A DNA stretch of 35,827 bases, taken from IMG/VR virus record IMGVR_UViG_3300021085_000098, positions 1 through 35,827 of that record, one strand, 5' to 3'. The stretch comes from a virus. Below are positions 12,541 through 17,254 of the stretch, piece by piece; within the stretch, counting starts at the first letter, position 1; every line of letters begins with the position of its first letter. A model generated the notes under the pieces. That model did not search any database. It saw nothing but the letters and a program-made list of their open reading frames with translations, and had not been told where the DNA came from. The translations under genes and the position numbers were made by a program.

Positions 12541-13053
12541 TTGGATAATCTAACTCCATTTGCCAAGTTAATGCAGGCTATTGCTATGCGCGAAAGCAGC
12601 GGCGATCCGACAAAGACGTCTGACGCTGGTGCAATTGGGTTGCTTGGCATAATGCCAAAAGACGCAATGCAAGGTATGCGCAGAAATGTTCCAAACGTGT
12701 TTGACGCTGCAACGGCTCTTGGTTTTGACTTTCCAGACCGTAGCCAGCAAACGGCCGAGGCTTTGTTGCGCGATCCGCAAATTAACAGTATGATTGGTGA
12801 AAAATACCTTACTGAGCTTGCTAATAAGTACCAAGGCGACCCGGAAGCCACATTAACGGCTTACAATGCTGGCCCAGAAAAGTATGACCGTATTGGCTCT
12901 GCTGCTGGTATGGACATACCAGAGCAGCGTGATTACTCAGCAGCGGTTGCGCGTGATTACATGGAGTTGTTTGGTGAGCCTATGCCAGAAAACTTAGCAA
13001 CATTGCAATCGCTTCGCCCGCGATTGCGCCCGCAAAGAGGATTGTTAGACTAA
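12541..13053 (+). CDS. Lytic transglycosylase (SLT family), virion-associated
   Basis: A 170-residue protein with the SLT fold: catalytic Glu18 in MRESSGDP, the GAIGLLGIMP motif (30-39) and TAYNAGP (106-112). It cleaves the glycan strands of peptidoglycan. Its place among virion genes, far from the endolysin, fits an entry enzyme that opens the wall for DNA ejection. The C-terminus is a short tail, RPRLRPQRGLLD, with motifs shared by other virion proteins of this phage. The start is TTG (12541), the only start in frame after a stop, with GAGGG about 10 nt upstream. Confidence 0.85.
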   Translation: MDNLTPFAKLMQAIAMRESSGDPTKTSDAGAIGLLGIMPKDAMQGMRRNVPNVFDAATALGFDFPDRSQQTAEALLRDPQINSMIGEKYLTELANKYQGDPEATLTAYNAGPEKYDRIGSAAGMDIPEQRDYSAAVARDYMELFGEPMPENLATLQSLRPRLRPQRGLLD

Positions 13054-13673
13054 TGGCCATAACAACATACGCAGAGTTGAAAGCGTCAATTACTGACTTT
13101 CTCAACCGCGACGACTTAGACACAGTTACGCCGACGTTTATTTCGTTGGCTGAATCTGATTTGCAGCGCCGCATACGTCACTGGCGCGGCGAAAAGCGCA
13201 GTTCTGCTGAAATTGACACGCAATACAGCGCAATTCCTGCTGATTTCTTGGAAGCCATTCGTTTTTACATCACTGGCGGCGATACGCGCCCGCTTGAGTT
13301 GATTTCGCAGAATGAGTTGCTTGACCGCAAGTTTAAAAACTTAAACACCAGCGGCCAGCCTGCATATTACGCGATTACGGCGGGTGAAATTGAAGTTTAC
13401 CCAGTTCCAGACGCAACTTATACGACTGAGCTGTATTATAACTCCAGAGTACCTGCTTTGAGCGACAGCACGACGACAAATTGGCTTTTGGAGTATTATC
13501 CAGACGCATATTTGTACGGTTCGCTGGTTCACTCGGCACCGTATTTAAAAGAAGACGCACGCCTGCAAACTTGGGCGGCGTTGTATCAAAGTGCAGTTGA
13601 CGCAATCAATAATGAGAGCGAAAGCAGCAAATTTGGCGGTTCTGGCCGCAAACTCAAAATTAGGAGCTACTGA
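13053..13673 (+). CDS. SU10-type adaptor (head-to-tail connector) protein
   Basis: A 206-residue protein matching the SU10_adaptor family. It begins with TYAELKASITDFLNRDDLDT, has SAIPADFLEAIRF, then GEIEVYPVPDATYTTELYYN and the signature PALSDSTTTNWLLEYYPDAYLYGSLVHSAP region (split here for length: PALSDSTTTNWLLEYY, PDAYLYGSLVHSAP). Members form the ring below the portal to which the tail binds. Its presence with an SU10-like capsid protein supports a podovirus assembly. It overlaps the transglycosylase by one base. Confidence 0.85.
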   Translation: MAITTYAELKASITDFLNRDDLDTVTPTFISLAESDLQRRIRHWRGEKRSSAEIDTQYSAIPADFLEAIRFYITGGDTRPLELISQNELLDRKFKNLNTSGQPAYYAITAGEIEVYPVPDATYTTELYYNSRVPALSDSTTTNWLLEYYPDAYLYGSLVHSAPYLKEDARLQTWAALYQSAVDAINNESESSKFGGSGRKLKIRSY

Positions 13674-13675
13674 GC

Positions 13676-14062
13676 ATGAGTTTTTCAAATGCAACAGAAA
13701 CGCTGGTGCTAAACTGGCTTTTGACTACTGGCAGCGCAACGCGGCCTACATCTTGGCACCTTGCGTTGTTTACGAGCAACCCAGCAGAAGATGCGAGTGG
13801 CACAGAAGTTAGCACGTCTGGCACAGCATATGCGCGTCAGTCGGCTGCGTTTACTGTTTCTGGCAACACAGCGTCAAATACGTCTGCGATTGAGTTTCCG
13901 ACAGCCACTGCGTCATACGGCACAGTCAGCCACGTTGGCGTTTATGACGCGTCTACTGGCGGTAATTTGCTTGCATACGCAGCATTGACCACAAGCAAAG
14001 CAATCGACACTGGCGATGTGTTGCGCGTACCTGCTGGCGATCTTGACATCACGCTAGACTAA
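13676..14062 (+). CDS. Tail-fibre-like Gp80-type protein
   Basis: A 128-residue beta-rich protein that resembles a small fibre or attachment family often seen beside tail genes. Typical segments are MSFSNATETLVLNWLL, WHLALFTSNP, GTAYARQSAAF, the strand pair EFPTATASYGTVSHVGVYDA, and GDVLRVPAGDLDITLD at the C-terminus. It is likely a virion component at the tail or head surface. It starts 2 bp after the adaptor gene, so the two are made together. Confidence 0.75.
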   Translation: MSFSNATETLVLNWLLTTGSATRPTSWHLALFTSNPAEDASGTEVSTSGTAYARQSAAFTVSGNTASNTSAIEFPTATASYGTVSHVGVYDASTGGNLLAYAALTTSKAIDTGDVLRVPAGDLDITLD

Positions 14063-14065
14063 TAA

Positions 14066-14791
14066 ATGACAGATGTAGTCTACAGGACTGGATTTGGTAC
14101 TAGCGCTTTCGGTGTCCGAGCTTTCGGCGTTGATGGCGCGACTAAAGCCGTGGCCAGCACTGTTGTTACTGTAAGCGCTACGTCGTCTGCATCTACTCGC
14201 GTTAGGCTATCTGCATCTATTGTTGCGGCGTCTTCGTCAAACACGTCTTCGTCTGCGCGCGTTCGCGAGATTGCAGGCACTGCGTCAACTTCAGCAAGCA
14301 CTGTAAGCGCCGCCCAGCGCGTTAGACTTGCAGATGGCGACGTCAGTGCTTTAGCATCCACACAAAGCGCATGTGAGCGCGTACAGCAGCCCTCTGCGTC
14401 TACTGACGTGTCAGCATCCGCTACGGGCGGTGTTGAGCGCGTAAGGCTATCAGACGGCTCGGCTGCTGCCTTGGCCAGCACATCAGTCAACACGGTGTTT
14501 ATTTATGTGTTTGACGCTGCATCATCTGTATCGGCTGTGTTTACGCCGACTGTTGAGCGTGTGCAGTTTACTGGCTCTAACATTGCGCTGACGTCTGCGT
14601 TTTTGGCCAATGCGGTTGAGAAGTGGGAGCCTGAAGCTGGCACTGATGAAACATGGACTACACTTGCGGGAACACCAGAAATATGGCAGGATGCACCCAA
14701 CGCATCCGGCGGCTGGACGGCGTCTCCCCTCACATCACAGGATTGGACAGCAGCCCCGGCGAGTGCTGACGATTGGATTGCTGCGGCATAG
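14066..14791 (+). CDS. Repeat protein: 20-residue units then a 10-residue Trp ladder
   Basis: A 241-residue virion-type protein built almost wholly of exact repeats. From residue 45 to 184 seven units of exactly 20 residues start at 45, 65, 85, 105, 125, 145 and 165; six begin Arg-Val (RVRL, RVRE, RVRL, RVQQ, RVRL, RVQF) and the fifth boundary at 145 reads FIYV. Units are rich in Ala, Ser and Thr, with an ALAST-like segment. From residue 187 tryptophans fall at 187, 197, 207, 217, 227 and 237, exactly ten apart. Such length precision points to a beta-solenoid or trimeric fibre shaft. Neighbours are fibre genes. I recognise no named family. Confidence 0.75.
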   Translation: MTDVVYRTGFGTSAFGVRAFGVDGATKAVASTVVTVSATSSASTRVRLSASIVAASSSNTSSSARVREIAGTASTSASTVSAAQRVRLADGDVSALASTQSACERVQQPSASTDVSASATGGVERVRLSDGSAAALASTSVNTVFIYVFDAASSVSAVFTPTVERVQFTGSNIALTSAFLANAVEKWEPEAGTDETWTTLAGTPEIWQDAPNASGGWTASPLTSQDWTAAPASADDWIAAA

Positions 14792-14800
14792 GAGAATATC

Positions 14801-17254
14801 ATGGCGGATACAACCACAACAACATACGGCCTAGTTAAACCAGAAGTCGGCGCGTCAGAGGACACGTGGGGCGAAAAAATTAACACAAACCTCGACAATA
14901 TCGACAATCTGCTTGACGGCACGACGCCTGTAACTGGCATTGATATTAACTCTGGTACGATTGGCGGCGTGACTGCTGACGGTAACATTTCGTTTGGCGA
15001 CAATAACAAGGCCATTTTCGGCGCAGGGTCTGACCTACAGATTTACCATGATGGGTCTAATAGTTATATTGATGAAACTGGCACTGGAACGCTTAGAGTA
15101 AGAGGGTATAATCAGGTTCGTATAACAGATACATCTGATAATATTGCGGCTATATTTAAAGGTGATGCTGAAACAACTTTATACCACAACAATGCATCCA
15201 AACTCGCCACCAGCAGCAGCGGTGTAGACGTCACTGGGACTTTGACCAGCGATGGGCTGACTGTGGGTGATGGGCATACGATTGGCGACGATGGATTTGA
15301 CAATCTTGTCATTGCATCATCCGCAGCGGAAAGCATTATTCTGAATAGCAACACATTCCCTACAGTTGTTAAAACAGATGCGGAATTTCGTGTAGAAACA
15401 GACTTTGGAACTGATCGTTTTAAGGTTGATACCTCCACAGGCGACATCAGCTTCTACGAGGACACAGGCACCACGCCAAAGTTCTTCTGGGATGCGAGTG
15501 CGGAGAGCTTGGGGATTGGAAATGCATCACCATCATCTTTCCCATCTGCGGCTAAAGACCTTGTTATTGGCAATACCACTGGCTCTCACGGTATTACAAT
15601 TCAATCTCAAAATTCTAGCAACGGAAACATATACTTTACTGACACTACTACCGCTGCAAGCTACAATGGTTTTGTTCGTTACTATCACGGAGACAATGCA
15701 CTTGGATTTGGAACGAACAACGGCACAGAACGCATGCGCATCGACAGCACTGGTGTAGACATCACAGGCACAGTGACCAGCGATGGGCTGACTGTGGATA
15801 AAGCAAGTTCCCCTGCAATTACTTTACAAGAGACTACAGGCACTTACGGTTATAAAATCCACACAGCCGTTTCGAGTTCAACTGATTATGGCTTGCGATT
15901 GAGAACTTTGGCAAATAAAGAGTTGGCCATTTTTAACTCCAACGGCGACGTCAGCTTCTACGAGGACACAGGCACCACGCCAAAGTTCTTCTGGGATGCG
16001 AGTGCGGAGAGCTTGGGGATTGGTGTTACAGACCCAGATAGTGGGCTTGAAGTTCAATCCTCTGCAAGCGGTACTAACTCTGTGCATCTATCCAACACAA
16101 GTTCAACTGGGTACGGTGCAAAGTTTGTGGGCGGCGGCAATACTTCAACACGATATATTGCAGATTTCCGTGATTACTCTGGTACATCAAAAGTTAAGAT
16201 TGATGGTGATGGTAATGTTGGGATTGGTGTAACATCTCCAGATAATCAACTTTGCATAGCCTCTGGGAGTGACGGTACAGGGGTCGGAGATGGGATTGCC
16301 TTTTACGGAGCGGGGTCTAACAAGCAAGCTGCTATAGAAAGTTATAACGCTGGCAGTTACAGTGGTGACTTGCGTTTTTATACTGTTAATAAAGGACAAA
16401 TTGATACTAATGTGTCAGAAGCCATGCGCATCGACGCCAGCGGTAACTTGCTGGTGGGGACTACTACATTAGGTCTTTATAATCAGTCATCCGAAACAGG
16501 TTTAACATTTGGCTCTAACCTTCAGATTGCCCGTGATGGCGGCACGGTCGGGTATTTCAACCGCCTAACCTCTGACGGCAACATCGTTCAGTTCCGCAAA
16601 GACGGCGCAACTGTGGGGAGTATTGGTGTAATTTCTACTGACAATCTAGGTATTTTTGGGACTGCCTCTAGTCATGCTGGCCTTGTTTTTGGCACCAATG
16701 TAGTTCTTCCTGCTGTTAATAGCACCTATCTTACAAGTGCTGTAGACCTTGGGAATGAAAGCACAAAATTCAAAGACCTCTACCTCTCAGGCGGTGTCTA
16801 CCTCGGCGGCACTGGTTCGGCTAATAAGCTGGAGGACTATGAGGAGGGGACTTGGACTCCGGCATACGCTGGGTCAAGTACTGATGGGACTTACACATAT
16901 AGCGAACAACAAGGACATTACATTAAAATCGGAAATCAAGTCACCTGTTGGTGGAATATGACGAACGTTGCAACAACCACTGAAGGGACAGGAACTGTAA
17001 GTATTGAAAACCTACCGTATGCTGCTAACTGGGCAAGCGGTTTTAACGGCGAGGCGATTGGATCGTGCCAGTTGAATGGGTTTACCAATATTGATGGCGA
17101 TTTTATATCTGTAAAAGTAAATGACGGCGAAACCCGTATTCTAGTCTACAAGCAAACAGGTTCGAATAACAGCACAGAATCTGTATCTATCGGCCATAAA
17201 GTTAGTGGCGGATCGGACGTTAGGGGTTTTGTTACTTACTACGTTGGCGGATAG
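14801..17254 (+). CDS. Tail fibre protein
   Basis: An 817-residue fibre of marine-phage type. The N-terminus ([21 protein letters not shown], with [13 protein letters not shown]) is the usual virion-binding start. The shaft holds many beta-repeat phrases ([46 protein letters not shown]). The tip begins [11 protein letters not shown] and continues with [15 protein letters not shown], a C-terminal adhesin form common in marine phages. It should trimerise and bind the host surface. Two 73-bp identical DNA blocks sit inside the gene. There is no S74 chaperone domain at its end; that domain occurs instead in the gene at 21990. Confidence 0.88.
15447..15519 (+). repeat. Intragenic 73-bp repeat, copy 1
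   Basis: This block is identical to 15951-16023 within the tail fibre gene and encodes a shaft unit containing [15 protein letters not shown]. The identity continues a further 6 bp upstream after one mismatch. Near-perfect DNA identity suggests recent duplication or gene conversion. Confidence 0.9.
15951..16023 (+). repeat. Intragenic 73-bp repeat, copy 2
   Basis: Second copy of the block at 15447-15519, 504 bp away and in frame. Recombination between the copies would remove or add exactly 168 codons and change the fibre length without breaking the frame. Confidence 0.9.

Follow-up and report, generated by a model that had tools for sequence, protein, structure and literature searches.

A two-period repeat protein as the probable string of a beaded tail fibre in a short-tailed phage

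In the window analysed here, which is an entire 35,827-base virus record, a gene at positions 14066..14791 (+ strand) encodes a 241-residue repeat protein that is probably the string, or ‘rope’, of a beads-on-a-string tail fibre and as such would thread gp80-like beads. Delimited by its open reading frame, by autocorrelation and by its relatives, this protein combines a 20-residue and a 10-residue period, both of which are conserved; its upstream neighbour is homologous to the gp80 bead of phage GP4 and has the same predicted fold, and the two genes are paired almost constantly across divergent phages.

Gene neighbourhood and the gp80-like bead protein

The window belongs to a short-tailed phage and encodes a terminase, a portal, a scaffold, a major head protein and an ejection protein; locally, the gene order runs from a lytic transglycosylase through an SU10-type adaptor, the gp80-like bead and the repeat protein to a tail fibre. 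The tail context is fixed by the adaptor protein at 13053..13673 (+ strand), which belongs to the SU10 adaptor family (PF24175, E 4.8e-36; PHROG 2941; 7z47 adaptor, E 3.4e-12). It is followed by the 128-residue gp80-like fibre bead protein (13676..14062, + strand), with 3 bases between the stop of this gene and the start of the repeat gene. Downstream, positions 14801..17254 (+ strand) encode an 817-residue tail-fibre-like protein with PHROG tail fibre and virion structural matches, and N-termini like its own follow ropes in other loci. From this gene context, the repeat protein is a putative virion component. A scan for promoters and terminators gave a result no better than chance.

The identity of the upstream neighbour was determined by sequence and by predicted fold. 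Its sequence hits the Pfam family ‘Podophage GP4 fiber I protein gp80’ (PF23140; E 4.4e-39) and chain a of PDB 8jou, the latter both with phmmer (E 7.7e-11) and with a profile (E 6.2e-18); the structure is entitled ‘Fiber I and fiber-tail-adaptor of phage GP4’, and the chain a protein is present in it in ten copies. An AlphaFold2 model of the bead protein (pLDDT 90.6) was matched by Foldseek to 8jou_a (E 7.4e-7) and superimposed on it (VIA) with Z 15.7 and rmsd 1.9 Å over 124 aligned residues. The next fold matches were the neck proteins 9c39_K and 9mt4_K (Z ~9.8), and the comparison with A511 gp105 (6hhk; Z 6.3, rmsd 3.8, 95 residues aligned) lay within the chance range. The upstream neighbour is therefore a gp80 bead homologue, which moves the likely role of the repeat protein from shaft to string. 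The GP4 fibre I reportedly consists of five gp80 dimers joined by an elongated rope protein. The GP4 protein has been described as a dimeric fibril joining an adhesin to the tail collar (PMC13243795).

Periodicity of the repeat protein and its pairing with gp80

The repeat protein opens with a conserved motif of aromatic-Gly pentads, a possible anchor (residues 1–24, YRTGFGTSAFGVRAFGVDG; 14066..14137, + strand), continues with the 20-residue repeat region (residues 25–184; 14138..14617, + strand), in which a weaker unit at 25–44 precedes seven units, and ends in the 10-residue Trp ladder with six Trp (residues 185–241; 14618..14788, + strand). The translation bears out the unit starts given in the initial annotation (45, 65, 85, 105, 125, 145 and 165), as well as the six Trp placed ten apart (187, 197, 207, 217, 227 and 237) and the unbroken period, residues 45–241 being free of insertions and deletions. 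Arg-Val, which had been read at nearly all unit starts, is found at six of the seven, the unit at 145 starting with FIYV. The repeats had further been called exact; this holds for their spacing, but within the units the sequence is degenerate, as judged by a consensus of 40 relatives (R 79%, V 80%, R 63%, then alternating residues rich in A, S and T).

Using BLOSUM autocorrelation, we obtained maxima at lag 40 (z 9.1) and lag 20 (z 6.3) for residues 45–184, and at lag 10 (z 7.9) for residues 185–241. None of 2000 shuffles matched these values, the 99% limit of the shuffled maximum being ~4. Across the 40 relatives lag 20 exceeds lag 40 (mean z 7.8 vs 6.6), and the window protein shares its lag-40 excess with only some other proteins. 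A 40-residue super-repeat, with one dimer for every two units, was hinted at by the window alone and was rejected, lag 20 being dominant family-wide. Residues 25–44 are probably an eighth unit. In the N-terminal motif Y6, R7, G11, G16, G21 and G24 are invariant among the 40 relatives, and Y/F-G pentads are present in divergent ropes too.

In agreement with the view that the protein belongs to no named family, it has no Pfam, PHROG or PADLOC match. A PHROG search with the repeat protein returned no family at E 0.1, a baseplate wedge match sought in Pfam and PHROG was not found, and a tblastn search of 50,697 phage records with the repeat protein and the Trp module as queries gave nothing useful. 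Against the PDB, phmmer returned for the repeat protein just Pin1-like chance matches (E 0.4 or more).

Both the number of units and the number of Trp residues vary among relatives, which nevertheless retain the periods of 20 and 10. Protein lengths step by 10 or 20 residues (199, 209, 219, 239; 221, 241; 278, 288), the ladder mostly holds 2, 3, 4 or 6 Trp, and the alignment of 40 sequences is nearly gap-free as far as the ladder.

IMG/VR scans yielded 44 repeat-protein loci and 80 gp80 loci, with 86 distinct gp80 loci after duplicate removal. The repeat gene lies 0–6 bases downstream of gp80 in 73 of these 86 loci, which form a clade of shared ancestry and so are not independent; in a further 7 it is displaced but nearby. 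An insert of ~545 bases directly after gp80 separates the two genes in three of the displaced cases (L081, L082 and L088), and fibre-type genes do so in the others. It is absent from the remaining 6 loci, owing in five of them to a contig that stops no more than 184 bases past gp80.

Several loci depart from the common arrangement in other ways. Two carry, directly after the repeat gene, an opposite-strand open reading frame of 181 residues that resembles an HNH homing endonuclease (L002:2869-3414 and L003:1817-2362, both − strand). Three encode shorter ropes of 196 residues that carry six Trp and whose N-terminus differs (PYYVEPxYWLEGYAVGDA); these sit 1.7–2.3 kb past gp80, beyond a fibre gene, and thus in a swapped gene order (L058, L060, L109). 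In three others the aromatic-Gly motif is duplicated or internal (L016:1979-2860, L042:4995-5780 and L085:4387-5109), which suggests joined strings.

The neighbouring genes of distant gp80 phages were likewise checked for periodicity. A lag-20 signal was found directly downstream of gp80 in MEP401 (z 9.8), C72C1 (5.4), ctjtQ328 (10.3), ct2t2046 (10.9) and Ochrobactrum OH (5.9), phages in which gp80 identity falls below 60% and the repeats have other sequences; four of these five also have ladders of 3, 4 or 6 Trp at a spacing of ten. A ladder accompanied by weak repeats is present in phiM5, while ctvy9321 and Octadecabacter DB2 combine six Trp with repeats of 21 and 22 residues, respectively, two or three genes beyond gp80. 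BcepMigl and Itty13, the nearest to GP4, give a weak 20-residue signal (z ~3) without a Trp ladder. Among the genes inspected in the gp80 carriers Oline (a mycobacteriophage), CcrBL9, Venkman and X1, no repeat neighbour was found. In the Sporosarcina phage Lietuvens, which has a Gram-positive host, ORF27 (L133:5397-6320, annotated DUF2313) directly follows a gp80-like gene, and ~20-residue units can be seen by eye in its N-terminus, the periodicity test being not significant; this protein may be a fusion of a rope and a baseplate protein.

A blind scan at the DNA level, which looked for six TGG codons spaced ten codons apart and made no use of homology to the window, returned 86 open frames, 34 of low complexity and 52 others, some of the latter near-identical to one another. 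Near the C-terminus the Trp count is exactly six in all 52, although longer ladders would also have matched, and nearly all show lag 20 or a multiple ahead of the Trp. For 29 of the 52 a gp80 gene lies within 20 bases, and for 7 more elsewhere in the locus. A strict ceiling of six Trp was rejected, since a scan for seven found L342 with about ten Trp and a short open reading frame in L275; a strong tendency remains. Some ropes with a Trp ladder lack a recognised gp80, and a comparison of a small protein upstream with gp80 gave an hhalign probability of 1.3% (E 0.04), too weak to accept the bead-like proteins upstream of other ropes as distant gp80 homologues. The gene product gp11 of Octadecabacter DB virus 2 (L046:7065-8591), annotated as ‘ribonuclease E’, consists of an N-terminal region, 22-residue repeats and a six-Trp ladder, and is a misannotated rope-like protein.

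A proposed string threading beads and its alternatives

We infer that the repeat protein binds gp80 as a string. The N-terminal Tyr/Phe-Gly pentad motif would anchor it at one end, and the 20-residue units would run extended through successive gp80-like beads, with one unit for each bead site rather than one for each dimer. Each unit would probably add a beta strand to a bead, the Arg-containing stretch lying between beads, and the C-terminal Trp ladder might dock onto another component of the tail or adhesin. On this reading, both bead number and fibre length would be dictated by how many 20-residue units the string has; if unit number equals bead number, a ruler function follows. More tentatively, and with somewhat less than even confidence, the family as a whole could be viewed as an encoded ruler of one bead per 20-residue unit, combined with a near-universal six-Trp plug by which very different strings would attach to one common type of partner.

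Structure prediction bears on these readings to a limited extent. The AlphaFold2 monomer of the repeat protein, modelled with 40 homologues, has a mean pLDDT of 45.8 and a pTM of 0.42; residues ~70–160 are predicted as strands (pLDDT 50–70), and the Trp ladder stays at about 27–34. The model is poor, yet it does not indicate disorder with high certainty. Its poor quality would fit a string that needs its beads in order to fold, but is weak evidence for any reading. Similarly poor beta-helix predictions were obtained by workers on phage LSH1 for an adhesin spacer whose gene adjoins a gp80-like gene, and they wondered whether this spacer holds a repetitive motif. Two stacked elongated folds had been proposed in the initial annotation; an elongated virion component with two modules is supported, whereas a stand-alone solenoid with a Trp-stacked tip is left unsupported by the low-confidence monomer.

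A self-standing fibre would nonetheless account for the strict period, the strand-like alternation and the strands predicted at pLDDT 50–69 over residues ~70–160, the units forming a beta-solenoid or a trimeric beta shaft with two strands per turn, the Trp ladder a stacked tip and gp80 a separate base or cap. We consider it unlikely, given that confidence stayed low despite 40 diverse and almost gap-free homologues, that the Trp ladder reached a pLDDT of only about 30, and that the near-constant pairing with gp80 would go unexplained. Still less probable is a flexible Ser/Ala/Thr-rich linker, a tether between the tail and an adhesin, without repeat-specific contacts, in which the period would reflect duplication history. 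The composition, the low pLDDT and records in which such proteins are called ‘serine-rich adhesin’ are in its favour, but homologues of 31–85% identity have no insertion or deletion in the repeat region except in one column, the R-V-R positions are conserved, and the exact 10-residue spacing of Trp recurs in unrelated sequences. Drift would break the register of a free linker, and its retention argues against one.

Placing the string on the head, as a capsid or head-side fibre, would change the location and leave the mechanism the same. The GP4 fibre I is said to run along the head edges, the next-best fold matches of the bead are to neck proteins (9c39_K and 9mt4_K; Z ~9.8), and PHROG 240 falls in the category head and packaging, gp80-like families being filed as ‘head protein’. 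The order adaptor, gp80, repeat protein and tail fibre points instead to the tail or neck, and we regard a head-side position as highly improbable.

Known systems and the scope of the putative string family

The closest known counterpart is Fiber I of the Ralstonia podophage GP4 (PDB 8jou), whose bead is homologous to the window bead and has the same fold, and in the window a second gene likewise adjoins gp80, the elongated shape of its product being deduced from the repeats. The GP4 rope is reportedly a described structure. Searches of the PDB with the rope profile, BcepMigl gp57 and the Itty13 protein matched no rope chain, and the comparison was made through GP4-like relatives rather than through the rope of GP4 itself. 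In GP4-like phages of Burkholderia and Pseudomonas, gp80 is followed by a virion protein gene whose product has weak repeats of ~20 residues. PHROG 19041, the GP4-like branch, is matched by BcepMigl gp57 and Itty13 and not by the window protein, which has no detectable sequence match to it. Members of this branch, like the window protein, stand directly after gp80; they are virion-associated and have a weak ~20-residue period, but they differ at the C-terminus and lack the strong 20-residue units and the Trp ladder, both of which the window protein has.

Dimeric beads on an extended chain, the principle proposed here, are also found in A511 gp105 and T4 gp8, where BW3TFN is carried on a BW3 chain. 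In the A511 baseplate, BW3TFN (gp105) dimers are chained by an extended BW3 chain that crosses each of three dimers, so that there are three bead dimers per chain (PMC10811340). Unlike the window phage, which has a podophage portal and adaptor, A511 and T4 use this arrangement in a myophage baseplate, where the string belongs to a protein of the baseplate wedge. The Milano gp125/gp127 garland is listed with these bead systems; Milano gp126 was rejected as a repeat string, its sequence having no 20-residue units. Short repeats in an elongated viral fibre also make up the triple beta-spiral shafts of adenovirus. Triple beta-spiral repeats are about 15 residues long, whereas the units here have 20 residues (21–22 in some relatives) and come with a paired bead gene.

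The beads-on-a-string principle is already known, and what is new is a widespread string family with a two-period signature and a pairing rule. This family has no Pfam model, and PHROG covers just its GP4-like branch. The combination of a gp80 neighbour, a 20-residue register and Trp at every tenth residue provides a signature for candidate string genes in many phage records, and helps to name genes annotated as ‘hypothetical’, ‘serine-rich adhesin’ or ‘ribonuclease E’. It also makes a length-ruler model of the tail fibre directly testable, in which the string protein may set the length of the fibre.
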